Source: Ophiura sarsii (Eukaryota; Echinodermata; Ophiuroidea; Amphilepidida; Ophiuridae). From it: 64,000 bases of DNA. The notes below the pieces were generated by a model that ran no database searches, was not told the origin of the DNA, and saw only the letters and a list, made by a program, of their open reading frames with translations. Made by a program: the position numbers and the translations under genes. Positions 16,439 to 64,000 of this stretch are shown piece by piece. Location: positions 60,209,048 through 60,273,047 of the forward strand of contig CM069447.1 of NCBI GenBank assembly GCA_035610835.1, read 5' to 3'. The stretch's first letter is position 1; each line of letters opens with the position of its first letter.

Positions 16439-16445
16439 TTACAAA

Positions 16446-31232: not shown

Positions 31233-31319
31233 GCTTCCCGGAAGTTCCCGTCATTACCCCCAGCTATATCCTATGGTTTATACTTTTAAGGAACCACAGT
31301 ATTTCTTTCCACCTCGTGA

Positions 31320-33770: not shown

Positions 33771-34076
33771 GTGTGTGTGTGCTATCAATGTTGACTGTTA
33801 TATAAACATTGAGTTATTCTATGGAAATTTGTGCGACATGTTTGTGAAAGTCACCCGTTTTTAGAGGTTTATGAAGACAGCATTGACTAATTAAGTAATT
33901 TGAATTAAAATATTGTAACCTATAATACTAATTGTGAAACATTCAGATCGTTGTTACAGCCGCTGTAACAGTTCAATGGCTATTTAGTATTGAATAAATG
34001 TATGACATCGGTATAAAAAGAACATACTACTGCTTTACTGCTAAGTAAATTGGGTGAACCTGCAGGTCCCACACCA

Positions 34077-34937
34077 CCACATCAGTTCCCTATTGCTTTG
34101 TGTGGTTAAGAGGTCAAGTTCGTGTTAATTCTTTTGTCACCTTTAGAGCAAACTGGTTCATTCAAATCATTGTTTTTATTGAAGATCAAGATGTCGTCTG
34201 CTTAAAAACAATCAATTTTGTTGGGGGTAAGCAGCAATTCTTTTCTCGCTATGGGCCAATGATATCTATCCTACGTACGACAGGCTGCCTAAATCCTAAG
34301 ATCATGGATTTTAGCTCTAAATTGGTAGAAACAGTGAAATCGTGTAAAATGATACCATTCAAGAAAATGCTAGAGATTCTGGGCCTAATGTGGAGAAATA
34401 ACCAACAAATGCCAAATTATGAAACATTTAGGTACATTTACAGCACTTTTACCCTTTCTAGGATATTAAATTTAGACTTATTGTGGGGTCTATCTTAATT
34501 TCAAACACTGCCGGGTATTGCCATAATGCAAAATATTATTTGGTGGTGTGCATCTGCAAAGCCCCGGGTTTGCTAGTGTAAATAGCTATATTCGTAATTT
34601 GAGCAGCTTGCCTCTAGTCCTTTAATTAATTATCATTTTAGCACATACATTAGGAGATCCCAATGCTTTCAGAATGTATAAACATGATTACATTTCGTAG
34701 CTTAAATGTGAAAAGAGAACTTTATCAAAATATGTTGCAGGTTTATTTTGAGACACCCTTTATGTGTCCAGTGCCCTATTGCATAACACACAACATTCAT
34801 CTTAGGAAGACGTATTCTTCTTAATTCTCAACTCTTCTAGGATTGTTAAAGAATTTGTGGGTTGATCTTCATGATAAGACACTATGTCAAACTTCAGAAC
34901 TTCTTTAAACAATTCTTAATCTGGCTTAAGAATTGTT
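34077..34937 (+). repeat. Long-unit intron insert, copy 1
   Basis: An 861-bp segment present only in expanded units; short units join CCCACACC directly to AAAATAAG at its borders. It holds the only uninterrupted version of a 132-codon open frame (34100-34498, first codon GTG). I do not recognise the translation, and it has no signal peptide or known domain. Near the right end is an inverted repeat, AACAATTCTTAA and TTAAGAATTGTT (34908-34937, 6-base loop). Whether the insert is ancestral and lost from short units, or was gained, is not settled. Confidence 0.8.
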
Positions 34938-35304
34938 AAAATAAGTCTTTCTGAGTTACCTTCAAATTAATCTGAATTTTTATGCACTAGGGTCCTGTGA
35001 TATGTTAACATAAATACGTCATTCTCAAATTGTTAAATCTTTATAATATTTTATCTAACATTATTGACACATTTACTGTTTATTTTAAATCGGCAAGTAA
35101 TGGTTTACATTCCTACAGATTCTTCTCTAAACACAAAGTACACAATAGCTATAATCAGTCCCATGCAGTAAAACATTACATGAATTTATAATGCATATCA
35201 CATTATTAAACATTTTTAATCATATTCCTATTGCATAATGCTTACATTTGAATTCAAAAGTGGGTAATACTCTAATTATACAACTTCAACCGATTTTGTT
35301 ATAG

Positions 35305-35499
35305 CACAATGTACAGCTCCAACGGTACCAGCAAACGGACTGTTCACACCTAATACGGACATCGCTGTTGGAGCAACGGTGACGCTGACCTGCACTTCTG
35401 CGGACTATGTAGTAACTGGTATCGCAACAGGAACATGCACTGATCCAGGAGATGCTAGTGGGCCAACAATTATGCCTGACATATCGGCCACTGTGTGTT
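35305..35499 (+). CDS. CCP-like exon 1 (first in array)
   Basis: A 195-base internal exon between a TATAG acceptor and a perfect GTAAGT donor. It enters and leaves in phase 1: the codon split across each junction is T|CA, giving Ser. The module is 65 residues with four cysteines at positions 3, 30, 45 and 65. Their spacing, the ANG turn, VGATVTLTC and YVVTG match the order of a Sushi/CCP (complement control protein) domain, whose usual disulfides are C1-C3 and C2-C4. The conserved Trp before the last Cys is absent, so the family call is probable, not certain. CCP modules are extracellular and bind proteins or glycans in complement, adhesion and matrix proteins; the role here is unknown. No N-glycosylation sequon is present. 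Val8 codon is GTA. No upstream exon was found; the preceding intron contains long insert copy 1. Confidence 0.78.
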
Positions 35500-36220
35500 G
35501 TAAGTTGTTTGTTTTAATGATATGTGTTTAATTGTCTATACATGTGTGTGTGTGTGCTATCAATGTTGACTGTTATATAAACATTGAGTTATTCTATGGA
35601 AATTTGTGCGACATGTTTGTGAAAGTCACCCGTTTTTAGAGGTTTATGAAGACAGCATTGACTAATTAAGTAATTTGAATTAAAATATTGTAACCTATAA
35701 TACTAATTGTTGTTGAAACATTCAGATCGTTGTTACAGCCGCTGTAACAGTTCAATGGCTATTTAGTATTGAATAAATGTATGACATCGGTATAAAAAGA
35801 ACATACTACTGCTTACTGCTAAGCAAATTGGGTGCACCTGCAGGTCCCACACCAAAATAAGTCTTTCTGAGTTACCTTCAAATTAATCTGAATTTTTATG
35901 CACTAGGGTCCTGTGATATGTTAACATAAATACGTCATTCTCAAATTGTTAAATCTTTATAATATTTTATCTAACATTATTGACACATTTACTGTTTATT
36001 TTAAATCGGCAAGTAATGGTTTACATTCCTACAGATTCTTCTCTAAACACAAAGTACACAATAGCTATAATCAGTCCCATGCAGTAAAACATTACATGAA
36101 TTTATAATGCATATCACATTATTGAACATTTTTAATCATATTCCTATTGCATAATGCTTACATTTGAATTCAAAAGTGGGTAATACTCTAATTATACAAC
36201 TTCAACCGATTTTGTTATAG

Positions 36221-36415
36221 CACAATGTACAGCTCCAACGGTGCCAGCAAACGGACTTTTCACACCTAATACGGACATCGCTGTTGGAGCAACGGTGACG
36301 CTGACCTGCACTTCTGCGGACTATGTAGTAACTGGTATCGCAACAGGAACATGCACTGATCCAGGAGATGCTAGTGGGCCAACAATTATGCCTGACATAT
36401 CGGCCACTGTGTGTT
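36221..36415 (+). CDS. CCP-like exon 2
   Basis: Same 65-residue phase 1-1 module as exon 1, unchanged in protein. Val8 is GTG, and Leu13 is CTT where nearly all copies have CTG. The next intron has a private GGTTGAC for GTATGAC change near 36694. Confidence 0.78.
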
Positions 36416-37136
36416 GTAAGTTGTTTGTTTTAATGATATGTGTTTAATTGTCTATACATGTGTGTGTGTGTGCTATCAATGTTGACTGTTATATAAACAT
36501 TGAGTTATTCTATGGAAATTTGTGCGACATGTTTGTGAAAGTCACCCGTTTTTAGAGGTTTATGAAGACAGCATTGACTAATTAAGTAATTTGAATTAAA
36601 ATATTGTAACCTATAATACTAATTGTTGTTGAAACATTCAGATCGTTGTTACAGCCGCTGTAACAGTTCAATGGCTATTTAGTATTGAATAAATGGTTGA
36701 CATCGGTATAAAAAGAACATACTACTGCTTACTGCTAAGCAAATTGGGTGCACCTGCAGGTCCCACACCAAAATAAGTCTTTCTGAGTTACCTTCAAATT
36801 AATCTGAATTTGTATGCACTAGGGTCCTGTGATATGTTAACATAAATACGTCATTCTCAAATTGTTAAATCTTTATAATATTTTATCTAACATTATTGAC
36901 ACATTTACTGTTTATTTTAAATCGGCAAGTAATGGTTTACATTCCTACAGATTCTTCTCTAAACACAAAGTACACAATAGCTATAATCAGTCCCATGCAG
37001 TAAAACATTACATGAATTTATAATGCATATCACATTATTGAACATTTTTAATCATATTCCTATTGCATAATGCTTACATTTGAATTCAAAAGTGGGTAAT
37101 ACTCTAATTATACAACTTCAACCGATTTTGTTATAG

Positions 37137-37331
37137 CACAATGTACAGCTCCAACGGTGCCAGCAAACGGACTGTTCACACCTAATACGGACATCGCTGT
37201 TGGAGCAACGGTGACGCTGACCTGCACTTCTGCGGACTATGTAGTAACTGGTATCGCAACAGGAACATGCACTGATCCAGGAGATGCTAGTGGGCCAACA
37301 ATTATGCCTGACATATCGGCCACTGTGTGTT
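37137..37331 (+). CDS. CCP-like exon 3
   Basis: Consensus protein module; Val8 GTG. The preceding intron has GAATTTGTATGC, a variant otherwise seen two units downstream (before exon 5), hinting at a two-unit duplication. Confidence 0.78.
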
Positions 37332-38052
37332 GTAAGTTGTTTGTTTTAATGATATGTGTTTAATTGTCTATACATGTGTGTGTGTGTGCTATCAATATTG
37401 ACTGTTATATAAACATTGAGTTATTCTATGGAAATTTGTGCGACATGTTTGTGAAAGTCACCCGTTTTTAGAGGTTTATGAAGACAGCATTGACTAATTA
37501 AGTAATTTGAATTAAAATATTGTAACCTATAATACTAATTGTTGTTGAAACATTCAGATCGTTGTTACAGCCGCTGTAACAGTTCAATGGCTATTTAGTA
37601 TTGAATAAATGTATGACATCGGTATAAAAAGAACATACTACTGCTTACTGCTAAGCAAATTGGGTGCACCTGCAGGTCCCACACCAAAATAAGTCTTTCT
37701 GAGTTACCTTCAAATTAATCTGAATTTTTATGCACTAGGGTCCTGTGATATGTTAACATAAATACGTCATTCTCAAATTGTTAAATCTTTATAATATTTT
37801 ATCTAACATTATTGACACATTTACTGTTTATTTTAAATCGGCAAGTAATGGTTTACATTCCTACAGATTCTTCTCTAAACACAAAGTACACAATAGCTAT
37901 AATCAGTCCCATGCAGTAAAACATTACATGAATTTATAATGCATATCACATTATTGAACATTTTTAATCATATTCCTATTGCATAATGCTTACATTTGAA
38001 TTCAAAAGTGGGTAATACTCTAATTATACAACTTCAACCGATTTTGTTATAG

Positions 38053-38247
38053 CACAATGTACAGCTCCAACGGTGCCAGCAAACGGACTGTTCACACCTA
38101 ATACGGACATCGCTGTTGGAGCAACGGTGACGCTGACCTGCACTTCTGCGGACTATGTAGTAACTGGTATCGCAACAGGAACATGCACTGATCCAGGAGA
38201 TGCTAGTGGGCCAACAATTATGCCTGACATATCGGCCACTGTGTGTT
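38053..38247 (+). CDS. CCP-like exon 4
   Basis: Consensus protein module; Val8 GTG. The upstream intron has a private ATCAATATTGAC change near 37390. Confidence 0.78.
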
Positions 38248-38968
38248 GTAAGTTGTTTGTTTTAATGATATGTGTTTAATTGTCTATACATGTGTGTGTG
38301 TGTGCTATCAATGTTGACTGTTATATAAACATTGAGTTATTCTATGGAAATTTGTGCGACATGTTTGTGAAAGTCACCCGTTTTTAGAGGTTTATGAAGA
38401 CAGCATTGACTAATTAAGTAATTTGAATTAAAATATTGTAACCTATAATACTAATTGTTGTTGAAACATTCAGATCGTTGTTACAGCCGCTGTAACAGTT
38501 CAATGGCTATTTAGTATTGAATAAATGTATGACATCGGTATAAAAAGAACATACTACTGCTTACTGCTAAGCAAATTGGGTGCACCTGCAGGTCCCACAC
38601 CAAAATAAGTCTTTCTGAGTTACCTTCAAATTAATCTGAATTTGTATGCACTAGGGTCCTGTGATATGTTAACATAAATACGTCATTCTCAAATTGTTAA
38701 ATCTTTATAATATTTTATCTAACATTATTGACACATTTACTGTTTATTTTAAATCGGCAAGTAATGGTTTACATTCCTACAGATTCTTCTCTAAACACAA
38801 AGTACACAATAGCTATAATCAGTCCCATGCAGTAAAACATTACATGAATTTATAATGCATATCACATTATTGAACATTTTTAATCATATTCCTATTGCAT
38901 AATGCTTACATTTGAATTCAAAAGTGGGTAATACTCTAATTATACAACTTCAACCGATTTTGTTATAG

Positions 38969-39163
38969 CACAATGTACAGCTCCAACGGTGCCAGCAAAC
39001 GGACTGTTCACACCTAATACGGACATCGCTGTTGGAGCAACGGTGACGCTGACCTGCACTTCTGCGGACTATGTAGTAACTGGTATCGCAACAGGAACAT
39101 GCACTGATCCAGGAGATGCTAGTGGGCCAACAATTATGCCTGACATATCGGCCACTGTGTGTT
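38969..39163 (+). CDS. CCP-like exon 5
   Basis: Consensus protein module; Val8 GTG. The upstream intron carries GAATTTGTATGC as before exon 3. Confidence 0.78.
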
Positions 39164-39883
39164 GTAAGTTGTTTGTTTTAATGATATGTGTTTAATTGTC
39201 TATACATGTGTGTGTGTGTGCTATCAATGTTGACTGTTATATAAACATTGAGTTATTCTATGGAAATTTGTGCGACATGTTTGTGAAAGTCACCCGTTTT
39301 TAGAGGTTTATGAAGACAGCATTGACTAATTAAGTAATTTGAATTAAAATATTGTAACCTATAATACTAATTGTTGTTGAAACATTCAGATCGTTGTTAC
39401 AGCCGCTGTAACAGTTCAATGGCTATTTAGTATTGAATAAATGTATGACATCGGTATAAAAAGAACATACTACTGCTTACTGCTAAGCAAATTGGGTGCA
39501 CCTGCAGGTCCCACACCAAAATAAGTCTTTCTGAGTTACCTTCAAATTAATCTGAATTTTTATGCACTAGGGTCCTGTGATATGTTAACATAAATACGTC
39601 ATTCTCAAATTGTTAAATCTTTATAATATTTTATCTAACATTATTGACACATTTACTGTTTATTTTAAATCGCAAGTAATGGTTTACATTCCTACAGATT
39701 CTTCTCTAAACACAAAGTACACAATAGCTATAATCAGTCCCATGCAGTAAAACATTACATGAATTTATGATGCATATCACATTATTGAACATTTTTAATC
39801 ATATTCCTATTGCATAATGCTTACATTTGAATTCAAAAGTGGGTAATACTCTAATTATACAACTTCAACCGATTTTGTTATAG

Positions 39884-40078
39884 CACAATGTACAGCTCCA
39901 ACGGTGCCAGCAAACGGACTGTTCACACCTAATACGGACATCGCTGTTGGAGCAACGGTGACGCTGACCTGCACTTCTGCGGACTATGTAGTAACTGGTA
40001 TCGCAACAGGAACATGCACTGATCCAGGAGATGCTAGTGGGCCAACAATTATGCCTGACATATCGGCCACTGTGTGTT
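39884..40078 (+). CDS. CCP-like exon 6
   Basis: Consensus protein module; Val8 GTG. The upstream intron lacks one G (AAATCGCAAG near 39670), giving a 915-base step. Confidence 0.78.
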
Positions 40079-40801
40079 GTAAGTTGTTTGTTTTAATGAT
40101 ATGTGTTTAATTGTCTATACATGTGTGTGTGTGTGTGCTATCAATGTTGACTGTTATATAAACATTGAGTTATTCTATGGAAATTTGTGCGACATGTTTG
40201 TGAAAGTCACTCGTTTTTAGAGGTTTATGAAGACAGCATTGACTAATTAAGTAATTTGAATTAAAATATTGTAACCTATAATACTAATTGTTGTTGAAAC
40301 ATTCAGATCGTTGTTACAGCCGCTGTAACAGTTCAATGGCTATTTAGTATTGAATAAATGTATGACATCGGTATAAAAAGAACATACTACTGCTTACTGC
40401 TAAGCAAATTGGGTGCACCTGCAGGTCCCACACCAAAATAAGTCTTTCTGAGTTACCTTCAAATTAATCTGAATTTTTATGCACTAGGGTCCTGTGATAT
40501 GTTAACATAAATACGTCATTCTCAAATTGTTAAATCTTTATACTATTTTATCTAACATTATTGACACATTTACTGTTTATTTTAAATCGGCAAGTAATGG
40601 TTTACATTCCTACAGATTCTTCTCTAAACACAAAGTACACAATAGCTATAATCAGTCCCATGCAGTAAAACATTACATGAATTTATAATGCATATCACAT
40701 TATTGAACATTTTTAATCATATTCCTATTGCATAATGCTTACATTTGAATTCAAAAGTGGGTAATACTCTAATTATACAACTTCAACCGATTTTGTTATA
40801 G

Positions 40802-40996
40802 CACAATGTACAGCTCCAACGGTGCCAGCAAACGGACTGTTCACACCTAATACGGACATCGCTGTTGGAGCAACGGTGACGCTGACCTGCACTTCTGCGG
40901 ACTATGTAGTAACTGGTATCGCAACAGGAACATGCACTGATCCAGGAGATGCTAGTGGGCCAACAATTATGCCTGACATATCGGCCACTGTGTGTT
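40802..40996 (+). CDS. CCP-like exon 7
   Basis: Consensus protein module; Val8 GTG. The upstream intron has private changes CACTCGTTTTT (near 40209) and TATACTATTTT (near 40540). Confidence 0.78.
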
Positions 40997-41719
40997 GTAA
41001 GTTGTTTGTTTTAATGATATGTGTTTAATTGTCTATACATGTGTGTGTGTGTGTGCTATCAATGTTGACTGTTATATAAACATTGAGTTATTCTATGGAA
41101 ATTTGTGCGACATGTTTGTGAAAGTCACCCGTTTTTAGAGGTTTATGAAGACAGCATTGACTAATTAAGTAATTTGAATTAAAATATTGTAACCTATCAT
41201 ACTAATTGTTGTTGAAACATTCAGATCGTTGTTACAGCCGCTGTAACAGTTCAATGGCTATTTAGTATTGAATAAATGTATGAAATCGGTATAAAAAGAA
41301 CATACTACTGCTTATTGCTAAGCAAATTGGGTGCACCTGCAGGTCCCACACCAAAATAAGTCTTTCTGAGTTACCTTCAAATTAATCTGAATTTTTATGC
41401 ACTAGGGTCCTGTGATATGTTAACATAAATACGTCATTCTCAAATTGTTAAATCTTTATAATATTTTATCTAACATTATTGACACATTTACTGTTTATTT
41501 TAAATCGGCAAGTAATGGTTTACATTCCTACAGATTCTTCTCTAAACACAAAGTAAACAATAGCTATAATCAGTCCCATGCAGTAAAACATTACATGAAT
41601 TTATAATGCATATCACATTATTGAACATTTTTAATCATATTCCTATTGCATAATGCTTACATTTGAATTCAAAAGTGGGTAATACTCTAGTTATACAACT
41701 TCAACCGATTTTGTTATAG

Positions 41720-41914
41720 CACAATGTACAGCTCCAACGGTGCCAGCAAACGGACTGTTCACACCTAATACGGACATCGCTGTTGGAGCAACGGTGACGC
41801 TGACCTGCACTTCTGCGGACTATGTAGTAACTGGTATCGCAACAGGAACATGCACTGATCCAGGAGATGCTAGTGGGCCAACAATTATGCCTGACATATC
41901 GGCCACTGTGTGTT
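41720..41914 (+). CDS. CCP-like exon 8
   Basis: Consensus protein module; Val8 GTG. The upstream intron has private AAAGTAAACAATAG and CTCTAGTTATAC changes, neither touching the acceptor. Confidence 0.78.
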
Positions 41915-42613
41915 GTAAGTTGTTTGTTTTAATGATATGTGTTTAATTGTCTATACATGTGTGTGTGTGTGCTATCAATGTTGACTGTTATATAAACATT
42001 GAGTTATTCTATGGAAATTTGTGCGACATGTTTGTGAAAGTCACCCGTTTTTGGAGGTTTATGAAGACAGCATTGACTAATTAAGTAATTTGAATTAAAA
42101 TATTGTAACCTATAATACTAATTGTTGTTGAAACATTCATATCGTTGTTACAGCCGCTGTAACAGTTCAATGGCTATTTAGTATTGAAAAAGAACATACT
42201 ACTGCTTACTGCTAAGCAAATTGGGTGCACCTGCAGGTCCCACACCAAAATAAGTCTTTCTGAGTTACGTTCAAATTAATCTGAATTTTTATGCACTAGG
42301 GTCCTGTGATATGTTAACATAAATACGTCATTCTCAAATTGATAAATCTTTATAATATTTTATCTAACATTATTGACACATTTACTGTTTATTTTAAATC
42401 GGCAAGTAATGGTTTACATTCCTACAGATTCTTCTCTAAACACAAAGTACACAATAGCTATAATCAGTCCCATGCAGTAAAACATTACATGAATTTATAA
42501 TGCATATCACATTATTGAATATTTTTAATCATATTCCTATTGCATAATGCTTACATTTGAATTCAAAAGTGGGTAATACTCTAATTATACAACTTCAACC
42601 GATTTTGTTATAG

Positions 42614-42808
42614 CACAATGTACAGCTCCAACGGTACCAGCAAACGGACTGTTCACACCTAATACGGACATCGCTGTTGGAGCAACGGTGACGCTGACCT
42701 GCACTTCTGCGGACTATGTAGTAACTGGTATCGCAACAGGAACATGCACTGATCCAGGAGATGCTAGTGGGCCAACAATTATGCCTGACATATCGGCCAC
42801 TGTGTGTT
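42614..42808 (+). CDS. CCP-like exon 9
   Basis: Consensus protein module; Val8 GTA. The upstream intron has the 22-base deletion (ATTGAAAAAGAACAT near 42184) and the TTGATAAATC variant, a combination also seen before exons 23 and 29. Confidence 0.78.
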
Positions 42809-43163
42809 GTAAGTTGTTTGTTTTAATGATATGTGTTTAATTGTCTATACATGTGTGTGTGTGTGCTATCAATGTTGACTGTTATATAAACATTGAGTTA
42901 TTCTATGGAAATTTGTGCGACATGTTTGTGAAAGTCACCCGTTTTTAGAGGTTTATGAAGACAGCATTGACTAATTAAGTAATTTGAATTAAAATATTGT
43001 AACCTATAATACTAATTGTTGTTGAAACATTCAGATCGTTGTTACAGCCGCTGTAACAGTTCAATGGCTATTTAGTATTGAATAAATGTATGACATCGGT
43101 ATAAAAAGAACATACTACTGCTTACTGCTAAGTAAATTGGGTGCACCTGCAGGTCCCACACCA

Positions 43164-43971
43164 CCACATCAGTTCCCTATTGCTTTGTGTGGTTAAGAGG
43201 TCAAGTTCGTGTTAATTCTTTTTTCACCTTTAGAGCAAACTGGTTCATTCAAATCATTGTTTTTATTGAAGATCAAGATGTCGTCTGCTTAAAAACAATC
43301 AATTTTGTTGGGGGTAAGCAGCAATTCTTTTCTCGCTATGGGCCAATGATATCTATCTTACGTACGACAGGCTGCCTAATCCTAAGATCATGGATTTTAA
43401 CTCTAAATTGGTAGAAACAGTGAAATCGTGTAAAATGATACCATTCAAGAAAATGCTAGAGATTCTGGGCCTAATGTGGAGAAATAACCTACAAATTCCA
43501 AATTATGAAACATTTAGGTACATTTACAGCACTTTTACCCTTTCTAGGATATTAAATTTAGACTTATTGTGGGGTCTATCTTAATTTCAAACACTGCCGG
43601 GTATTGCCATAATGCAAAATATTATTTGGTGGTGTGCAAAGCCCCGGGTTAGCTAGTTGAGCAGCTTGCCTCTAGTCCTTTAATTAATTATCATTTTAGC
43701 ACATACATTAGGAGATCCCAATGCTTTCAGAATGTATAAACATGATTAAATTTCGTAGCTTAAATGTGAAAAGGGAACTTTATCAAAATATGTTGCAGGT
43801 TTATTTTGAGACACCCTTTATGTGTCCAGTGCCCTATTGCATAACACACAACATTCATCTTAGGAAGACGTATTCTTCTTAATTCTCAACTCTTCTAGGA
43901 TTGTTAAAGAATTTGTGGGTTGATCTTCATGATAAGACACTATGTCAAACTTCAGAACTTCTTTAATTGTT
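43164..43971 (+). repeat. Long-unit intron insert, copy 2
   Basis: Same insert, 808 bp. Compared with copy 1 the open frame is broken by a one-base loss near 43378 (GCCTAATCC for GCCTAAATCC). Short deletions occur near 43637 and 43655, and most of the terminal inverted repeat is missing (CTTTAATTGTTAAAATAAG). Confidence 0.85.
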
Positions 43972-44343
43972 AAAATAAGTCTTTCTGAGTTACCTTCAAA
44001 TTAATCTGAATTTTTATGCACTAGGGTCCTGTGATATGTCAACATAAATACGTCATTCTTAAATTGTTAAATCTTTATAATATTTTATCTTACATTATTG
44101 ACACATTTACTGTTTATTTTAAATCGGCAAGTAATGGTTTACATTCCTACAGATTCTTCTATAAACACAAAGTACACAATAGCTATAATCAGTCCCATGC
44201 AGTAAAACATTACATGAATTTATAATGCATATCACATTATTGAACATTTTTAATCATATTCCTATTGAATTGCATAATGCTTACATTTGAATTCAAAAGT
44301 GGGTAATACTCTAATTATACAACTTCAACCGATTTTGTTATAG

Positions 44344-44538
44344 CACAATGTACAGCTCCAACGGTACCAGCAAACGGACTGTTCACACCTAATACGGACA
44401 TCGCTGTTGGAGCAACGGTGACGCTGACCTGCACTTCTGCGGACTATGTAGTAACTGGTATCGCAATAGGAACATGCACTGATCCAGGAGATGCTAGTGG
44501 GCCAACAATTATGCCTGACATATCGGCCACTGTGTGTT
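44344..44538 (+). CDS. CCP-like exon 10 (T42I)
   Basis: Module with one protein change, Thr42 to Ile (ACA to ATA), shared only with exon 11; Val8 GTA. The preceding intron holds long insert copy 2. Downstream of the donor the intron reads TTTTTTATGATATG, and its GT tract is shortened to GTGTGTGGTGC, again shared with exon 11. Confidence 0.78.
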
Positions 44539-44891
44539 GTAAGTTGTTTGTTTTTTATGATATGTGTTTAATTGTCTATACATGTGTGTGGTGCTATCAA
44601 TGTTGACTGTTATATAAACATTGAGTTATTCTATGGAAATTTGTGCGACATGTTTGTGAAAGTCACCCGTTTTTAGAGGTTTATGAAGACAGCATTAACT
44701 AATTAAGTAATTTGAATTAAAATAGTGTAACCTATAATACTAATTGTTGTTGAAACATTCAGATCGTTGTTACAGCCGCTGTAACAGTTCAATGGCTATT
44801 TAGTATTGAATAAATGTATGACATCGGTATAAAAAGAACATATTACTGCTTACTGCTAAGTAAAGTGGGTGCACCTGCAGGTCCCACACCA

Positions 44892-45699
44892 CCACATCAG
44901 TTCCCTATTGCTTTGTGTGGTTAAGAGGTCAAGTTCGTGTTAATTCTTTTTTCACCTTTAGAGCAAACTGGTTCATTCAAATCATTGTTTTTATTGAAGA
45001 TCAAGATGTCGTCTGCTTAAAAACAATCAATTTGTTGGGGGTAAGCAGCAATTCTTTTCTCGCTATGGGCCAATGATATCTATCTTACGTACGACAGGCT
45101 GCCTAAATCCTAAGATCATGGATTTTAGCTCTAAATTGGTAGAAACAGTGAAATCGTGTAAAATGATACCAATTAAGAAAATGCTAGAGATTCTGGGCCT
45201 AATGTGGAGAAATAACCTACAAATTCCAAATTATGAAACATTTAGGTACATTTACAGCACTTTTACCCTTTCTAGGATATTAAATTTAGACTTATTGTGG
45301 GGTCTATCTTAATTTCAAACACTGCCGGGTATTGCCATAATGCAAAATATTATTTGGTGGTGTGCAAAGCCCCGGGTTAGCTAGTTGAGCAGCTTGCCTC
45401 TAGTCCTTTAATTAATTATCATTTTAGCACATACATTAGGAGATCCCAATGCTTTCAGAATGTATAAACATGATTAAATTTCGTAGCTTAAATGTGAAAA
45501 GGGAACTTTATCAAAATATGTTGCAGGTTTATTTTGAGACACCCTTTATGTGTCCAGTGCCCTATTGCATAACACACAACATTCATCTTAGGAAGACGTA
45601 TTCTTCTTAATTCTCAACTCTTCTAGGATTGTTAAAGAATTTGTGGGTTGATCTTCATGATAAGACACTATATCAAACTTCAGAACTTCTTTAATTGTT
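44892..45699 (+). repeat. Long-unit intron insert, copy 3
   Basis: Same length and same deletions as copy 2, including the lost inverted repeat, plus its own one-base loss (CAATCAATTTGTTGG near 45031). The open frame is therefore broken in a different place. Confidence 0.85.
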
Positions 45700-46071
45700 A
45701 AAATAAGTCTTTCTGAGTTACCTTCAAATTAATCTGAATTTTTATGCACTAGGGTCCTGTGATATGTCAACATAAATACGTCATTCTTAAATTGTTAAAT
45801 CTTTATAATATTTTATCTTACATTATTGACACATTTACTGTTTATTTTAAATCGGCAAGTAATGGTTTACATTCCTACAGATTCTTCTATAAACACAAAG
45901 TACACAATAGCTATAATCAGTCCCATGCAGTAAAACATTACATGAATTTATAATGCATATCACATTATTGAACATTTTTAATCATATTCCTATTGAATTG
46001 CATAATGGTTACATTTGAATTCAAAAGTGGGTAATACTCTAATTATACAACTTCAACCGATTTTGTTATAG

Positions 46072-52426: not shown

Positions 52427-52621
52427 CACAATGTACAGCTCCAACGGTACCAGCAAACGGACTGTTCACACCTAATACGGACATCGCTGTTGGAGCAACG
52501 GTGACGCTGACCTGCACTTCTGCGGACTATGTAGTAACTGGTATCGCAACAGGAACATGCACTGATCCAGGAGATGCTAGTGGGCCAACAATTATGCCTG
52601 ACATATCGGCCACTGTGTGTT
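52427..52621 (+). CDS. CCP-like exon 17
   Basis: Consensus protein module; Val8 GTA. The upstream GT tract is the shortest of the ordinary units, giving a 914-base step. Confidence 0.78.
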
Positions 52622-53344
52622 GTAAGTTGTTTGTTTTAATGATATGTGTTTAATTGTCTATACATGTGTGTGTGTGTGTGCTATCAATGTTGACTGTTAT
52701 ATAAACATTGAGTTATTCTATGGAAATTTGTGCGACATGTTTGTGAAAGTCACCCGTTTTTAGAGGTTTATTTAGACAGCATTGACTAATTAAGTAATTT
52801 GAATTAAAATATTTTAACCTATAATACTAATTGTTGTTGAAACATTCAGATCGTTGTTACAGCCGCTGTAACAGTTCAATGGCTATTTAGTATTGAATAA
52901 ATGTATGACATCGGTATAAAAAGAACATACTACTGCTTACTGCTAAGCAAATTGGGTGCACCTGCAGGTCCCACACCAAAATAAGTCTTTCTGAGTTACC
53001 TTCAAATTAATCTGAATTTTTATGCACTAGGGTCCTGTGATATGTTAACATAAATACGTCATTCTCAAATTGTTAAATCTTTATAATATTTTATCTAACA
53101 TTATTGACACATTTACTGTTTATTTTAAATCGGCAAGTAATGGTTTACATTCCTACAGATTCTTCTCTAAACACAAAGTACACAATAGCTATAATCAGTC
53201 CCATGCAGTAAAACATTACATGAATTTATAACGCATATCACATTATTGAACATTTTTAATCATATTCCTATTGCATAATGCTTACATTTGAATTCAAAAG
53301 TGGGTAATACTCTAATTATACAACTTCAACCGATTTTGTTATAG

Positions 53345-53539
53345 CACAATGTACAGCTCCAACGGTGCCAGCAAACGGTCTGTTCACACCTAATACGGAC
53401 ATCGCTGTTGGAGCAACGGTGACGCTGACCTGCACTTCTGCGGACTATGTAGTAACTGGTATCGCAACAGGAACATGCACTGATCCAGGAGATGCTAGTG
53501 GGCCAACAATTATGCCTGACATATCGGCCACTGTGTGTT
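53345..53539 (+). CDS. CCP-like exon 18
   Basis: Consensus protein with a private silent change, Gly12 GGT for GGA; Val8 GTG. The upstream intron has GGTTTATTTAGAC and ATATTTTAACC variants. Confidence 0.78.
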
Positions 53540-54262
53540 GTAAGTTGTTTGTTTTAATGATATGTGTTTAATTGTCTATACATGTGTGTGTGTGTGTGCT
53601 ATCAATGTTGACTGTTATATAAACATTGAGTTATTCTATGGAAATTTGTGCGACATGTTTGTGAAAGTCACCCGTTTTTAGAGGTTTATGAAGACAGCAT
53701 TGACTAATTAAGTAATTTGAATTAAAATATTGTAACCTATAATACTAATTGTTGTTGAAACATTCAGATCGTTGTTACAGCCGCTGTAACAGTTCAATGG
53801 CTATTTAGTATTGAATAAATGTATGACATCGGTATAAAAAGAACATACTACTGCGTACTGCTAAGCAAATTGGGTGCACCTGCAGGTCCCACACCAAAAT
53901 AAGTCTTTCTGAGTTACCTTCAAATGAATCTGAATTTTTATGCACTAGGGTCCTGTGATATGTTAACATAAATACGTCATTCTCAAATTGTTAAATCTTT
54001 ATAATATTTTATCTAACATTATTGACACATTTACTGTTTATTTTAAATCGGCAAGTAATGGTTTACATTCCTACAGATTATTTTCTAAACACAAAGTACA
54101 CAATAGCTATAATCAGTCCCATGCAGTAAAACATTACATGAATTTATAATGCATATCACATTATTGAACATTTTTAATCATATTCCTATTGCATAATGCT
54201 TACATTTGAATTCAAAAGTGGGTAATACTCTAATTATACAACTTCAACCGATTTTGTTATAG

Positions 54263-54457
54263 CACAATGTACAGCTCCAACGGTGCCAGCAAACGGACTG
54301 TTCACACCTAATACGGACATCGCTGTTGGAGCAACGGTGACGCTGACCTGCACTTCTGCGGACTATGTAGTAACTGGTATCGCAACAGGAACATGCACTG
54401 ATCCAGGAGATGCTAGTGGGCCAACAATTATGCCTGACATATCGGCCACTGTGTGTT
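54263..54457 (+). CDS. CCP-like exon 19
   Basis: Consensus protein module; Val8 GTG. The upstream intron has TCAAATGAATCTG and GATTATTTTCTAAAC changes. Confidence 0.78.
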
Positions 54458-55178
54458 GTAAGTTGTTTGTTTTAATGATATGTGTTTAATTGTCTATACA
54501 TGTGTGTTTGTGTGCTATCAATGTTGACTGTTATATAAACATTGAGTTATTCTATGGAAATTTGTGCGACATGTTTGTGAAAGTCACCCGTTTTTAGAGG
54601 TTTATGAAGACAGCATTGACTAATTAAGTAATTTGAATTAAAATATTGTAACCTATAATACTAATTGTTGTTGAAACATTCAGATCGTTGTTACAGCCGC
54701 TGTAACAGTTCAATGGCTATTTAGTATTGAATAAATGTATGACATCGGTATAAAAAGAACATACTACTGCTTACTGCTAAGCAAATTGGGTGCACCTGCA
54801 GGTCCCACACCAAAATAAGTCTTTCTGAGTTACCTTCAAATTAATCTGAATTTTTATGCACTAGGGTCCTGTGATATGTTAACATAAATACGTCATTCTC
54901 AAATTGTTAAATCTTTATAATATTTTATCTAACATTATTGACACATTTACTGTTTATTTTAAATCGGCAAGTAATGGTTTACATTCCTACAGATTCTTCT
55001 CTAAACACAAAGTACACAATAGCTATAATCAGTCCCATGCAGTAAAACATTACATGAATTTATAATGCATATCACATTATTGAACATTTTTAATCATATT
55101 CCTATTGCATAATGCTTACATTTGAATTCAAAAGTGGGTAATACTCTAATTATACAACTTCAACCGATTTTGTTATAG

Positions 55179-55373
55179 CACAATGTACAGCTCCAACGGT
55201 ACCAGCAAACGGACTGTTCACACCTAATACGGACATCGCTGTTGGAGCAACGGTGACGCTGACCTGCACTTCTGCGGACTATGTAGTAACTGGTATCGCA
55301 ACAGGAACATGCACTGATCCAGGAGATGCTAGTGGGCCAACAATTATGCCTGACATATCGGCCACTGTGTGTT
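55179..55373 (+). CDS. CCP-like exon 20
   Basis: Consensus protein module; Val8 GTA. The following intron has the longest GT tract in the window (about 11 repeats), making the next step 922 bases. Confidence 0.78.
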
Positions 55374-56100
55374 GTAAGTTGTTTGTTTTAATGATATGTG
55401 TTTAATTGTCTATACATGTGTGTGTGTGTGTGTGTGCTATCAATGTTGACTGTTATATAAACATTGAGTTATTCTATGGAAATTTGTGCGAGATGTTTGT
55501 GAAAGTCACCCGTTTTTAGAGGTTTATGAAGACAGCATTGACTAATTAAGTAATTTGAATTAAAATATTGTAACCTATAATACTAATTGTTGTTGAAACA
55601 TTCAGATCGTTGTTACAGCCGCTGTAACAGTTCAATGGCTATTTAGTATTGAATAAATGTATGACATCGGTATAAAAAGAACATACTACTGCTTACTGCT
55701 AAGCAAATTGGGTGCACCTGCAGGTCCCACACCAAAATAAGTCTTTCTGAGTTACCTTCAAATTAATCTGAATTTTTATGCACTAGGGTCCTGTGATATG
55801 TTAACATAAATACGTCATTCTCAAATTGTTAAATCTTTATAATATTTTATCTAACATTATTGACACATTTACTGTTTATTTTAAATCGGCAAGTAATGGT
55901 TTACATTCCTACAGATTCTTCTCTAAACACAAAGTACACAATAGCTATAATCAGTCCCATGCAGTAAAACATTACATGAATTTATAATGCATATTACATT
56001 ATTGAACATTTTTAATCATATTCCTATTGCATAATGCTTACATTTGAATTCAAAAGTGGGTAATACTCTAATTATACAACTTCAACCGATTTTGTTATAG

Positions 56101-56295
56101 CACAATGTACAGCTCCAACGGTGCCAGCAAACGGACTGTTCACACCTAATACGGACATCGCTGTTGGAGCAACGGTGACGCTGACCTGCACTTCTGCGGA
56201 CTATGTAGTAACTGGTATCGCAACAGGAACATGCACTGATCCAGGAGATGCTAGTGGGCCAACAATTATGCCTGACATATCGGCCACTGTGTGTT
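56101..56295 (+). CDS. CCP-like exon 21
   Basis: Consensus protein module; Val8 GTG. The following intron lacks 17 bases (GTATGACATACTACTG near 56574), as does the intron after exon 27. Confidence 0.78.
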
Positions 56296-56598
56296 GTAAG
56301 TTGTTTGTTTTAATGATATGTGTTTAATTGTCTATACATGTGTGTGTGTGTGCTATCAATGTTGACTGTTATATAAACATTGAGTTATTCTATGGAAATT
56401 TGTGCGACATGTTTGTGAAAGTCACCCGTTTTTAGAGGTTTATGAAGACAGCATTGACTAATTAAGTATTTTGAATTAAAATATTGTAACCTATAATACT
56501 AATTGTTGTTGAAACATTCAGATCGTTGTTACAGCCGCTGTAACAGTTCAATGGCTATTTAGTATTGAATAAATGTATGACATACTACTGCTTACTGC

Positions 56599-56904
56599 TA
56601 AGCAAATTGGGTGCACCTGCAGGTCCCACACCAAAATAAGTCTTTCTGAGTTACCTTCAAATTAATCTGAATTTTTATGCACTAGGGTCCTGTGATATGT
56701 TAACATAAATACGTCATTCTCAAATTGTTAAATCTTTATAATATTTTATCTTAAGCAAATTGGGTGCACCTGCAGGTCCCACACCAAAATAAGTCTTTCT
56801 GAGTTACCTTCAAATTAATCTGAATTTTTATGCACTAGGGTCCTGTGATATGTTAACATAAATACGTCATTCTCAAATTGGTAAATCTTTATAATATTTT
56901 ATCT
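56599..56904 (+). repeat. 153-bp tandem duplication in one intron
   Basis: TAAGCAAATTGGGTGCACCT starts at both 56599 and 56752, and about 153 bases repeat in tandem. This explains the 1052-base step before exon 22. The copies differ by one base near the end (TTGTTAAATC versus TTGGTAAATC). Confidence 0.9.
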
Positions 56905-57152
56905 AACATTATTGACACATTTACTGTTTATTTTAAATCGGCAAGTAATGGTTTACATTCCTACAGATTCTTCTCTAAACACAAAGTACACAATAGCTAT
57001 AATCAGTCCCATGCAGTAAAACATTACATGAATTTATAATGCATATCACATTATTGAACATTTTTAATCATATTCCTATTGCATAATGCTTACATTTGAA
57101 TTCAAAAGTGGGTAATACTCTAATTATACAACTTCAACCGATTTTGTTATAG

Positions 57153-57347
57153 CACAATGTACAGCTCCAACGGTGCCAGCAAACGGACTGTTCACACCTA
57201 ATACGGACATCGCTGTTGGAGCAACGGTGACGCTGACCTGCACTTCTGCGGACTATGTAGTAACTGGTATCGCAACAGGAACATGCACTGATCCAGGAGA
57301 TGCTAGTGGGCCAACAATTATGCCTGACATATCGGCCACTGTGTGTT
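57153..57347 (+). CDS. CCP-like exon 22
   Basis: Consensus protein module; Val8 GTG. It follows the only intron with an internal 153-base duplication (56599-56904). The following intron has the 22-base deletion. Confidence 0.78.
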
Positions 57348-58052
57348 GTAAGTTGTTTGTTTTAATGATATGTGTTTAATTGTCTATACATGTATGTGTG
57401 TGTGTGTGTGCTATCAATGTTGACTGTTATATAAACATTGAGTTATTCTATGGAAATTTGTGCGACATGTTTGTGAAAGTCACCCGTTTTTAGAGGTTTA
57501 TGAAGACAGCATTGACTAATTAAGTAATTTGAATTAAAATATTGTAACCTATAATACTAATTGTTGTTGAAACATTCAGATCGTTGTTACAGCCGCTGTA
57601 ACAGTTCAATGGCTATTTAGTATTGAAAAAGAACATACTACTGCTTACTGCTAAGCAAATTGGGTGCACCTGCAGGTCCCACACCAAAATAAGTCTTTCT
57701 GAGTTACCTTCAAATTAATCTGAATTTTTATGCACTAGGGTCCTGTGATATGTTAACATAAATACGTCATTCTCAAATTGATAAATCTTTATAATATTTT
57801 ATCTAACATTATTGACACATTTACTGTTTATTTTAAATCGGCAAGTAATGGTTTACATTCCTACAGATTCTTCTCTAAACACAAAGTACACAATAGCTAT
57901 AATCAGTCCCATGCAGTAAAACATTACATGAATTTATAATGCATATCACATTATTGAACATTTTTAATCATATTCCTATTGCATAATGCTTACATTTGAA
58001 TTCAAAAGTGGGTAATACTCTAATTATACAACTTCAACCGATTTTGTTATAG

Positions 58053-58247
58053 CACAATGTACAGCTCCAACGGTACCAGCAAACGGACTGTTCACACCTA
58101 ATACGGACATCGCTGTTGGAGCAACGGTGACGCTGACCTGCACTTCTGCGGACTATGTAGTAACTGGTATCGCAACAGGAACATGCACTGATCCAGGAGA
58201 TGCTAGTGGGCCAACAATTATGCCTGACATATCGGCCACTGTGTGTT
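58053..58247 (+). CDS. CCP-like exon 23
   Basis: Consensus protein module; Val8 GTA. Its 22-base-deleted, TTGATAAATC upstream intron and GGCTAATTAG downstream variant are all shared with exon 29. Confidence 0.78.
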
Positions 58248-58968
58248 GTAAGTTGTTTGTTTTAATGATATGTGTTTAATTGTCTATACATGTGTGTGTG
58301 TGTGCTATCAATGTTGACTGTTATATAAACATTGAGTTATTCTATGGAAATTTGTGCGACATGTTTGTGAAAGTCACCCGTTTTTAGAGGTTTATGAAGA
58401 CAGCATTGACTAATTAAGTAATTTGAATTAAAATATTGTAACCTATAATACTAATTGTTGTTGAAACATTCAGATCGTTGTTACAGCCGCTGTAACAGTT
58501 CAATGGCTAATTAGTATTGAATAAATGTATGACATCGGTATAAAAAGAACATACTACTGCTTACTGCTAAGCAAATTGGGTGCACCTGCAGGTCCCACAC
58601 CAAAATAAGTCTTTCTGAGTTACCTTCAAATTAATCTGAATTTTTATGCACTAGGGTCCTGTGATATGTTAACATAAATACGTCATTCTCAAATTGTTAA
58701 ATCTTTATAATATTTTATCTAACATTATTGACACATTTACTGTTTATTTTAAATCGGCAAGTAATGGTTTACATTCCTACAGATTCTTCTCTAAACACAA
58801 AGTACACAATAGCTATAATCAGTCCCATGCAGTAAAACATTACATGAATTTATAATGCATATCACATTATTGAACATTTTTAATCATATTCCTATTGCAT
58901 AATGCTTACATTTGAATTCAAAAGTGGGTAATACTCTAATTATACAACTTCAACCGATTTTGTTATAG

Positions 58969-59163
58969 CACAATGTACAGCTCCAACGGTACCAGCAAAC
59001 GGACTGTTCACACCTAATACGGACATCGCTGTTGGAGCAACGGTGACGCTGACCTGCACTTCTGCGGACTATGTAGTAACTGGTATCGCAACAGGAACAT
59101 GCACTGATCCAGGAGATGCTAGTGGGCCAACAATTATGCCTGACATATCGGCCACTGTGTGTT
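58969..59163 (+). CDS. CCP-like exon 24
   Basis: Consensus protein module; Val8 GTA. Ordinary 916-base step. Confidence 0.78.
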
Positions 59164-59884
59164 GTAAGTTGTTTGTTTTAATGATATGTGTTTAATTGTC
59201 TATACATGTGTGTGTGTGTGCTATCAATGTTGACTGTTATATAAACATTGAGTTATTCTATGGAAATTTGTGCGACATGTTTGTGAAAGTCACCCGTTTT
59301 TAGAGGTTTATGAAGACAGCATTGACTAATTAAGTAATTTGAATTAAAATATTGTAACCTATAATACTAATTGTTGTTGAAACATTCAGATCGTTGTTAC
59401 AGCCGCTGTAACAGTTCAATGGCTATTTAGTATTGAATAAATGTATGACATCGGTATAAAAAGAACATACTACTGCTTACTGCTAAGCAAATTGGGTGCA
59501 CCTGCAGGTCCCACATCAAAATAAGTCTTTCTGAGTTACCTTCAAATTAATCTGAATTTTTATGCACTAGGGTCCTGTGATATGTTAACATAAATACGTC
59601 ATTCTCAAATTGATAAATCTTTATAATATTTTATCTAACATTATTGACACATTTACTGTTTATTTTAAATCGGCAAGTAATGGTTTACATTCCTACAGAT
59701 TCTTCTCTAAACACAAAGTACACAATAGCTATAATCAGTCCCATGCAGTAAAACATTACATGAATTTATAATGCATATCACATTATTGAACATTTTTAAT
59801 CATATTCCTATTGCATAATGCTTACATTTGAATTCAAAAGTGGGTAATACTCTAATTATACAACTTCAACCGATTTTGTTATAG

Positions 59885-60079
59885 CACAATGTACAGCTCC
59901 AACGGTGCCAGCAAACGGACTGTTCACACCTAATACGGACATCGCTGTTGGAGCAACGGTGACGCTGACCTGCACTTCTGCGGACTATGTAGTAACTGGT
60001 ATCGCAACAGGAACATGCACTGATCCAGGAGATGCTAGTGGGCCAACAATTATGCCTGACATATCGGCCACTGTGTGTT
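59885..60079 (+). CDS. CCP-like exon 25
   Basis: Consensus protein module; Val8 GTG. The upstream intron has CCCACATCAAAAT and TTGATAAATC variants. Confidence 0.78.
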
Positions 60080-60802
60080 GTAAGTTGTTTGTTTTAATGA
60101 TATGTGTTTAATTGTCTATACATGTGTGTGTGTGTGTGCTATCAATGTTGACTGTTATATAAACATTGAGTTATTCTATGGAAATTTGTGCGACATGTTT
60201 GTGAAAGTCACCCGTTTTTAGAGGTTTATGAAGACAGCATTGACTAATTAAGTAATTTGAATTAAAATATTGTAACCTATAATACTAATTGTTGTTGAAA
60301 CATTCAGATCGTTGTTACAGCCGCTGTAACAGTTCAATGGCTATTTAGTATTGAATAAATGTATGACATCGGTATAAAAAGAACATACTACTGCTTACTG
60401 CTAAGCAAATTGGGTGCACCTGCAGGTCCCACACCAAAATAAGTCTTTCTGAGTTACCTTCAAATTAATCTGAATTTTTACGCACTAGGGTCCTGTGATA
60501 TGTTAACATAAATACGTCATTCTCAAATTGTTAAATCTTTATAATATTTTATCTAACATTATTGACACATTTACTGTTTATTTTAAATCGGCAAGTAATG
60601 GTTTACATTCCTACAGATTCTTCTCTAAACACAAAGTACACAATAGCTATAATCATTCCCATGCAGTAAAACATTACATGAATTTATAATGCATATCACA
60701 TTATTGAACATTTTTAATCATATTCCTATTGCATAATGCTTACATTTTAATTCAAAAGTGGGTAATACTCTAATGATACAACTTCAACCGATTTTGTTAT
60801 AG

Positions 60803-60997
60803 CACAATGTACAGCTCCAACGGTGCCAGCAAACGGACTGTTCACACCTAATACGGACATCGCTGTTGGAGCAACGGTGACGCTGACCTGCACTTCTGCG
60901 GACTATGTAGTAACTGGTATCGCAACAGGAACATGCACTGATCCAGGAGATGCTAGTGGGCCAACAATTATGCCTGACATATCGGCCACTGTGTGTT
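60803..60997 (+). CDS. CCP-like exon 26
   Basis: Consensus protein module; Val8 GTG. The upstream intron has ACATTTTAATTC and CTAATGATAC, both shared only with exon 27. Confidence 0.78.
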
Positions 60998-61720
60998 GTA
61001 AGTTGTTTGTTTTAATGATATGTGTTTAATTGTCTATACATGTGTGTGTGTGTGTGCTATCAATGTTGACTGTTATATAAACATTGAGTTATTCTATGGA
61101 AATTTGTGCGACATGTTTGTGAAAGTCACCCGTTTTTAGAGGTTTATGAAGACAGCATTGACTAATTAAGTAATTTGAATTAAAATATTGTAACCTATAA
61201 TACTAATTGTTGTTGAAACATTCAGATCGTTGTTACAGCCGCTGTAACAGTTCAATGGCTATTTAGTATTGAATAAATGTATGACATCGGTATAAAAAGA
61301 ACATACTACTGCTTACTGCTAAGCAAATTGGGTGCACCTGCAGGTCCCACACCAAAATAAGTCTTTCTGAGTTACCTTCAAATTAATCTGAATTTTTATG
61401 CACTAGGGTCCTGTGATATGTTAACATAAATACGTCATTCTCAAATTGTTAAATCTTTATAATATTTTATCTAACATTATTGACACATTTACTGTTTATT
61501 TTAAATCGGCAAGTAATGGTTTACATTCCTACAGATTCTTCTCTAAACACAAAGTACACAATAGCTATAATCAGTCCCATGCAGTAAAACATTACATGAA
61601 TTTATAATGCATATCACATTATTGAACATTTTTAATCATATTCCTATTGCATAATGCTTACATTTTAATTCAAAAGTGGGTAATACTCTAATGATACAAC
61701 TTCAACCGATTTTGTTATAG

Positions 61721-61915
61721 CACAATGTACAGCTCCAACGGTGCCAGCAAACGGACTGTTCACACCTAATACGGACATCGCTGTTGGAGCAACGGTGACG
61801 CTGACCTGCACTTCTGCGGACTATGTAGTAACTGGTATCGCAACAGGAACATGCACTGATCCAGGAGATGCTAGTGGGCCAACAATTATGCCTGACATAT
61901 CGGCCACTGTGTGTT
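61721..61915 (+). CDS. CCP-like exon 27
   Basis: Consensus protein module; Val8 GTG. Upstream intron variants are shared with exon 26, so these are neighbour duplicates. The downstream intron has the 17-base deletion seen after exon 21. Confidence 0.78.
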
Positions 61916-62619
61916 GTAAGTTGTTTGTTTTAATGATATGTGTTTAATTGTCTATACATGTGTGTGTGTGTGCTATCAATGTTGACTGTTATATAAACAG
62001 TGAGTTATTCTATGGAAATTTGTGCGACATGTTTGTGAAAGTCACCCGTTTTTAGAGGTTTATGAAGACAGCATTGACTAATTAAGTAATTTGAATTAAA
62101 ATATTGTAACCTATAATACTAATTGTTGTTGAAACATTCAGATCGTTGTTACAGCCGCTGTAACAGTTCAATGGCTATTTAGTATTGAATAAATGTATGA
62201 CATACTACTGCTTACTGCTAAGCAAATTGGGTGCACCTGCAGGTCCCACACCAAAATAAGTCTTTCTGAGTTACCTTCAAATTAATCTGAATTTTTATGC
62301 ACTAGGGTCCTGTGATATGTTAACATAAATACGTCATTCTCAAATTGTTAAATCTTTATAATATTTTATCTAACATTATTGACACATTTACTGTTTATTT
62401 TAAATCGGCAAGTAATGGTTTACATTCCTACAGATTCTTCTCTAAACACAAAGTACACAATAGCTATAATCAGTCCCATGCAGTAAAACATTACATGAAT
62501 TTATAATGCATATCACATTATTGAACATTTTTAATCATATTCCTATTGCATAATGCTTACATTTGAATTCAAAAGTGGGTAATACTCTAATTATACAACT
62601 TCAACCGATTTTGTTATAG

Positions 62620-62814
62620 CACAATGTACAGCTCCAACGGTGCCAGCAAACGGACTGTTCACACCTAATACGGACATCGCTGTTGGAGCAACGGTGACGC
62701 TGACCTGCACTTCTGCGGACTATGTAGTAACTGGTATCGCAACAGGAACATGCACTGATCCAGGAGATGCTAGTGGGCCAACAATTATGCCTGACATATC
62801 GGCCACTGTGTGTT
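62620..62814 (+). CDS. CCP-like exon 28
   Basis: Consensus protein module; Val8 GTG. Corresponds to exon 22 in the higher-order duplication but lacks the 153-base intron duplication before it. Confidence 0.78.
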
Positions 62815-63515
62815 GTAAGTTGTTTGTTTTAATGATATGTGTTTAATTGTCTATACATGTGTGTGTGTGTGTGCTATCAATGTTGACTGTTATATAAACA
62901 TTGAGTTATTCTATGGAAATTTGTGCGACATGTTTGTGAAAGTCACCCGTTTTTAGAGGTTTATGAAGACAGCATTGACTAATTAAGTAATTTGAATTAA
63001 AATATTGTAACCTATAATACTAATTGTTGTTGAAACATTCAGATCGTTGTTACAGCCGCTGTAACAGTTCAATGGCTATTTAGTATTGAAAAAGAACATA
63101 CTACTGCTTACTGCTAAGCAAATTGGGTGCACCTGCAGGTCCCACACCAAAATAAGTCTTTCTGAGTTACCTTCAAATTAATCTGAATTTTTATGCACTA
63201 GGGTCCTGTGATATGTTAACATAAATACGTCATTCTCAAATTGATAAATCTTTATAATATTTTATCTAACATTATTGACACATTTACTGTTTATTTTAAA
63301 TCGGCAAGTAATGGTTTACATTCCTACAGATTCTTCTCTAAACACAAAGTACACAATAGCTATAATCAGTCCCATGCAGTAAAACATTACATGAATTTAT
63401 AATGCATATCACATTATTGAACATTTTTAATCATATTCCTATTGCATAATGCTTACATTTGAATTCAAAAGTGGGTAATACTCTAATTATACAACTTCAA
63501 CCGATTTTGTTATAG

Positions 63516-63710
63516 CACAATGTACAGCTCCAACGGTACCAGCAAACGGACTGTTCACACCTAATACGGACATCGCTGTTGGAGCAACGGTGACGCTGAC
63601 CTGCACTTCTGCGGACTATGTAGTAACTGGTATCGCAACAGGAACATGCACTGATCCAGGAGATGCTAGTGGGCCAACAATTATGCCTGACATATCGGCC
63701 ACTGTGTGTT
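63516..63710 (+). CDS. CCP-like exon 29 (last in window)
   Basis: Consensus protein module; Val8 GTA. Corresponds to exon 23. Its donor is intact and the intron continues past the window edge, so at least one more exon is expected downstream. Confidence 0.78.
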
Positions 63711-64000
63711 GTAAGTTGTTTGTTTTAATGATATGTGTTTAATTGTCTATACATGTGTGTGTGTGTGCTATCAATGTTGACTGTTATATAAACATTGAGT
63801 TATTCTATGGAAATTTGTGCGACATGTTTGTGAAAGTCACCCGTTTTTAGAGGTTTATGAAGACAGCATTGACTAATTAAGTAATTTGAATTAAAATATT
63901 GTAACCTATAATACTAATTGTTGTTGAAACATTCAGATCGTTGTTACAGCCGCTGTAACAGTTCAATGGCTAATTAGTATTGAATAAATGTATGACATCG

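Follow-up and report, generated by a model that had tools for sequence, protein, structure and literature searches.

Tandem array of 195-bp exons

The right-hand part of a 64,000-nucleotide stretch of the genome of the ophiuroid Ophiura sarsii (GenBank assembly GCA_035610835.1, contig CM069447.1, positions 60,209,048 to 60,273,047 of the forward strand; below, the window, in whose coordinates all positions are given) contains a tandem array of 29 exons of 195 bp on the forward strand, the first at 35305-35499 and the last at 63516-63710, each with the capacity to encode a sushi-like module of 65 residues with four cysteines. A first-pass annotation of the sequence had reported these exons with an acceptor and a perfect GTAAGT donor, and both signals proved to be invariant: the 20 bases preceding the exon are identical in 29/29 copies, as are nine bases at the donor, all of them containing GTAAGT. 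In the interval 33001-64000 this hexamer occurs 29 times, each time closing a 195-bp open exon, and nowhere else. At both ends of all 29 exons a codon is split after its first base (phase 1-1), and thus the exons, being of 3n bases between phase 1 introns, have the form of class 1-1 shuffled extracellular modules. Modules of phase 1-1 are described as the common components from which extracellular animal proteins have been shuffled (PMC8001218). When the sequence was scanned for exons of 150-240 bp in phase 1-1 that have a consensus donor, an acceptor rich in pyrimidines and four or more Cys, 29/29 exons were recovered in the array, versus none in bases 1-35200 of the forward strand and none on the reverse strand of bases 1-33770; the exon array is therefore not a product of chance.

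When the 29 exons are joined, the phase 1-1 frame runs without a stop through 1884 complete codons, or 1885 residues with the split first codon, as had been predicted, whereas the other two sense frames of the joined exons contain 118 and 115 stops. The modules are identical at the protein level in 26 of the 29 exons; two of the remaining exons (44344-44538 and 46072-46266) share a T>I replacement, and one (47847-48041) has D>N. The exons occupy 19.9% of the span from the first to the last of them and have a G+C content of 51%, compared with 30% in the introns.

Repeat units were mapped by searching the window for one unit with blastn, and tandem duplications were located with Tandem Repeats Finder. 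The previously proposed step of about 916 bp holds for 24 of the 28 donor-to-donor units (894-922 bp), the exceptions being one unit of 1052 bp and three of 1728-1775 bp. In particular, the first exon is followed by eight short intron-plus-exon units of 894-918 bp (35500-42808; exon ends at 36415, 37331, 38247, 39163, 40078, 40996, 41914 and 42808), then by three long units of 1730, 1728 and 1775 bp (42809-48041), whose introns carry an extra 809, 809 and 861 bp at unit position 355, and finally by seventeen further units (48042-63710). The latter measure 896-922 bp, except for the 1052-bp unit at 56296-57347, inside which both Tandem Repeats Finder and blastn detect a 153-bp intron duplication (56599-56904). 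The only three modules with protein differences all reside in the three long units.

At both ends of the array in the window lies a partial unit. On the right, the intron of the next unit (63711-64000) has reached unit position 290 when the window ends, with 99.7% identity over these 290 bp in the blastn search, and the array continues past the edge, as the first-pass annotation had stated. On the left, array DNA does begin at position 33771, the start given by that annotation; this is, however, an intronic point, unit position 47 within a GT-rich run. The blastn search, the alignment of the extra intron pieces and inspection of the junction agree on a partial unit at 33771-35304 with no exon before 35305, which places the first exon 1.5 kb to the right of the array start.

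The partial unit also holds the extra intron piece, which is thus present at the same place in four units (34077-34937, 43164-43971, 44892-45699 and 46620-47479), in a form of about 861 or 809 bp; the leftmost copy is one base longer than the long form elsewhere. Three short stretches, of 6, 22 and 24 bp, are missing from the shorter form, and the 24-bp stretch can form a small hairpin. Since no target-site duplication was seen at the ends of the approximately 861-bp piece, we lean, short of proof, towards its deletion from an older long unit as the source of the length difference. In the splice-site plus four-Cys scan, neither the array units nor the extra pieces yielded another four-Cys exon. 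The unit intron also contains an open stretch of 60 residues.

Similarity of the module to CCP domains

Sushi is the sole Pfam match of a single module (E 0.0016, 19.2 bits, residues 3-49 of 65); a repeat of the search with the module taken from the DNA reference gave 19.3 bits (E 0.0015), with the match ending at residue 48 of 64. In a search of PDB, the four best matches of the single module are CCP proteins, with E-values of 2e-10 to 1.4e-4. The best of them is CR1 (2e-10, a value summed over several CCPs of the chain, the best single stretch scoring 15.1 bits), where the matching stretch reaches residue 59 of 64, followed by a complement receptor related protein (2.2e-8, the match covering residues 1-45 of 64) and then by Crry (2.7e-6). 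The values of 19.3 bits for Sushi and 2e-10 for CR1 are those recorded for the first exon. The cysteines occupy positions 3, 30, 45 and 65, a CCP-like spacing that aligns with the CCPs of CR1, and only two residues separate the last Cys of one module from the first Cys of the next. In addition to the four cysteines, several spots of the module fit the CCP pattern, namely Pro after Cys1, Asn-Gly, Gly-x-x-Val-x-x-x-Cys and Tyr-x-x-x-Gly.

A four-cysteine fold other than a true CCP, resembling it in the first part only, would be compatible with three features of these data. A Trp between Cys3 and Cys4 is conserved in CCPs, and Trp is absent from all 29 modules; the single-module score lies under the gathering score of Sushi (PF00084), 20.7 bits, with the match extending no further than residue 49 of 65; and the CCP proteins in the PDB list are followed by CD276 at ranks 5 and 6 and then, with weaker E-values, by antibody light chains. 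Nevertheless, all four top PDB matches are CCP proteins, the CR1 stretch extends to residue 59 of 64, and the four cysteines together with these motif spots suit a CCP, so that we regard a different fold as very improbable. The module can be called sushi-like with reservations: the matches support sequence relatedness over its larger first part, and its last part is uncertain. The CCP-like assignment of the first-pass annotation stands to this extent, and the profile check that it had proposed returned Sushi as the only family, at a score below the cut-off.

Expansion of the array

The 28 units differ from each other by 0.81% on average, without a steady rise over distance. Neighbouring units diverge by 0.70%, units at lags of 2-18 by about 0.8-0.9%, and those at lags of 21-26 by less than 0.5%. 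Units 22 and 28, which lie 5.5 kb apart, have no substitutions between them, although one is 4 bp longer than the other. Scattered units have several variants in common. The lack of a steady rise of divergence with distance, together with these scattered shared variants, points to unequal exchange or conversion. We therefore consider it supported by the pattern of variants that the array expanded recently by unequal exchange between near-identical intron-plus-exon units of about 916 bp, which agrees with the expansion by exon duplication suggested earlier. With 0.81% divergence between units and a joined frame without a stop, the array has one property of a coding exon variable number tandem repeat (VNTR), namely near-identical tandem exon units in frame.

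Near-identical units of this length are hard to assemble, and a collapsed, stuttered or mis-joined repeat, in which the real number or order of units differs from that in the assembly, would be in line with the 100-N gap at 12327-12426 and the very similar direct duplications in the left part of the window. However, there are 51 intron columns in which just one unit differs (part of them owing to unit 21, with the internal duplication), neither length nor the presence of the extra piece is uniform among the units, as in a resolved array, and the only run of N in the window lies outside the array. An assembly error thus appears improbable.

Coding potential and constraint

The reading that we favour, at a probability of roughly 0.62, is that the array represents the repeat region of a gene, whose exons would be spliced one to the next to encode a long, acidic, disulphide-stiffened extracellular rod. 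The distribution of variation within the units bears directly on this. In the alignment of the 28 units, from which exon 1 was left out, 6 of 195 exon columns are variable, versus 69 of 721 intron columns (one-sided Fisher p = 0.0013), and no wholly intronic stretch of 195 columns has fewer than 10 variable columns when all 28 units are included. Indels are absent from the exons and fall into 13 event types in the introns, some of them arising from the duplication in one unit. Four of the exon variant columns are silent and two are replacing, whereas about 28% silent would be expected without selection (p = 0.054). As the exons vary less than the introns and carry no indels, a coding function is likely, though not proven, and we rate the evidence for coding constraint on this young array as moderate.

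The strength of the contrast depends on the units included. Unit 21, with its internal duplication, is poorly aligned, and without it 6 exon columns are set against 53 variable intron columns, with p = 0.018. Across five sets of units the p-value was 0.0013 (none dropped), 0.018 (21 dropped), 0.0013 (9-11), 0.022 (9-11 and 21) and 0.042 (8-11, 21, 22 and 28), the exon being the less variable each time. The lowest wholly intronic stretch in these sets has 10, 10, 7, 7 and 6 variable columns, versus 6, 6, 4, 4 and 4 in the exon.

A young macrosatellite would yield much of the same picture. An amplified fragment of a CCP gene, consisting of an exon and parts of introns, may not, or may no longer, belong to an expressed gene, its exons being intact from youth alone. 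Whole units including the introns are near-identical, and a mean divergence of 0.8% leaves mutations little time to reach the exons; moreover, the array starts in an intron, and the DNA next to it is rich in repeats and contains no 5' exon that could be recognised. On the other hand, the exons vary less than the introns in 5/5 comparisons and are free of indels, their variants lean towards silent changes, and every splice site is intact. On balance we consider a macrosatellite unlikely, though it is the alternative that we weigh most heavily.

Several observations count against the array being the repeat region of a gene for a CCP-type rod. The contrast between exons and introns depends on few variants; it weakens when unit 21 is dropped, and under the strictest choice of units the least variable stretch of intron (6 variable columns) comes near the exon level (4). 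No 5' or 3' exon of a gene was found within the 64-kb window, and the scan of bases 1-35200, which are repeat-rich, gave no comparable four-Cys exon, although a scan by splice sites and four Cys is blind to other kinds of exons. With respect to the module, the single copy stays below the Sushi cut-off, and the score of 46 bits for three copies, like the PDB values for two copies, counts the same evidence repeatedly. An AlphaFold2 model from the single sequence was uninformative (mean predicted local distance difference test score 41.3) as to the CCP fold, which has Cys1-Cys3 and Cys2-Cys4 disulphides.

Predicted product

Under the gene interpretation, one symmetrical phase 1-1 exon for a sushi/CCP-like module would have been multiplied recently, by unequal exchange, to at least 29 copies. 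Splicing of consecutive exons into one mRNA would then give a rod, either secreted or exposed on the cell surface, with a length of 1885 residues or more. It would consist of modules with disulphide bonds, and two residues would separate the outer cysteines of adjoining modules. The composition of the predicted sequence was not remarked on in the first-pass annotation: Lys, Arg, His, Glu and Trp are all missing from the module, and Thr accounts for 14 of its 65 residues. The 1884 residues compute to 183 kDa with a charge of -145 at pH 7, or about -5 per module, and to an isoelectric point of 4.05, presumably the floor of the program and hence possibly above the true value. Two joined modules contain no N-glycosylation sequon, and, as there is no Lys or Arg, the repeat region is free of trypsin sites. 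This composition was noticed after the fact and, since one founder module sets all copies, it does not amount to 29 independent observations.

Such a rod, each module of which would carry some five negative charges and lack both Lys and Arg, might act as a structural or barrier polymer or as a multivalent binder, its reach and charge scaling with copy number, unlike the differing binding sites of CR1. As the frame is preserved in every unit, gain or loss of copies would leave the protein intact, and length polymorphism would be expected; variation in length between individuals is plausible in view of the exchange signatures. The giant extracellular protein itself is something we infer from the exons. 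More tentatively, and with less confidence than in the rod as such, we propose a length-tunable extracellular polymer, well over 1885 residues long, in which a single homogenised module of about -5 charge recurs. For want of Lys and Arg, its repeat region would not be cut by trypsin-like proteases, and a hypervariable exon copy number would set length, charge and reach in each individual.

If the exons are spliced, the locus would encode a very long repeat protein of strongly acidic character, and gain or loss of copies could readily alter its length. If it is expressed, the units of one module each would be small enough for counting by single long reads, which would allow length polymorphism and the concerted evolution of coding exons to be traced directly. 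Ordinary trypsin proteomics would probably miss the repeat region for want of Lys and Arg, and short-read assemblies may be expected to collapse the array; together, these two blind spots could explain why such genes escape notice.

Sequence to the left of the array

Directly left of the array lies a C-rich block of long repeats that are about 73% alike (31358-33784), and the left edge of the array falls inside its end. A tblastn search of bases 1-35200 with the module gave chance matches only (best E 0.91). Pfam searches of forward-strand frames (5001-20000 and 20000-35000 in three frames, 25301-35282 in shorter pieces) found no family; as a control, array frames (one of 15 kb and three of 3.3 kb) gave no Sushi match, which shows that the frame scan is blind to such modules, although it detected a reverse transcriptase on the reverse strand, and we give the negative no weight. 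Similarly, no weight is given to a scan for signal-peptide exons, which had no positive control and returned none on either strand. Rfam at gathering scores and ARAGORN gave no matches over the window; among viral contigs there were 45 pattern matches, none of them confirmed, and phage records gave no match.

The reverse transcriptase is encoded on the reverse strand at 25155-26860 in two overlapping open frames (Pfam RVT_1, E 2.2e-27); a non-LTR element is our guess. A direct tandem duplication of 1893 bp with 99.9% identity (3792-5684 and 5683-7575) is either recent or an assembly duplicate. The 100-N gap is followed by a 128-bp tandem repeat (12436-12853), and a 478-bp direct repeat with 99.8% identity occurs at 12959-13436 and 14508-14985. 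Degenerate telomere-like (ACCCTA)n sequence is found at 10203-10313. A palindrome-like stretch of 403 bp at 18593-18995 is 90% self-complementary, and others occur at 9361-9750 (76%), 15264-15463 (88%) and 24664-24758 (99%); all of these are perhaps foldback mobile elements.

Comparison with known repeat proteins

Large extracellular proteins with many CCP modules include CSMD and SVEP1/polydom; there, the CCPs are strongly diverged and mixed with other domains. Tandem sushi domains as such are ordinary, since invertebrate proteins with multiple copies of them are known, as mentioned in PMC3927616. Among the titles and opening lines of abstracts of the open-access literature matches listed, none described a CCP exon array of the present kind, which is a statement about those matches and not about the printed literature.

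The closest relative by sequence is CR1, the top PDB match of the module. According to sections of PMC6121509, its repeat is a long homologous region of seven short consensus repeats (SCRs), the number of these regions varies between people, and the common form has 30 SCRs. Both systems consist of tandem CCP modules grown by duplication, but in CR1 a group of seven SCRs is repeated, whereas the ophiuroid array repeats one module without Trp, Lys, Arg, His or Glu. The resemblance appears to hold at the level of the module only, and we do not assign the array to the complement regulators of the CR1 family, which are membrane or plasma proteins that bind C3b/C4b.

The nearest system in kind is the kringle IV type 2 VNTR of LPA, whose coding units of about 5.6 kb number up to 40 per allele, as given in PMC11201333 (see also PMC11462820). 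Like the array described here, it consists of near-identical tandem exon units with one extracellular disulphide module each (PMC11201333, in part); the difference is that the LPA module is a kringle in a two-exon unit of about 5.6 kb, whereas here it is CCP-like in a one-exon unit of about 0.92 kb. The same portion of PMC11201333 names NEB, DMBT1, FLG, SPDYE3 and UBC beside LPA; these are likewise protein-coding VNTRs, but with other modules. We place the ophiuroid array with the coding exon VNTRs; what sets it apart among them is that a single CCP-like exon is repeated in units of 0.92 kb and hardly varies in protein. Expression of the locus would make the array a CCP-type equivalent of LPA kringle IV-2.

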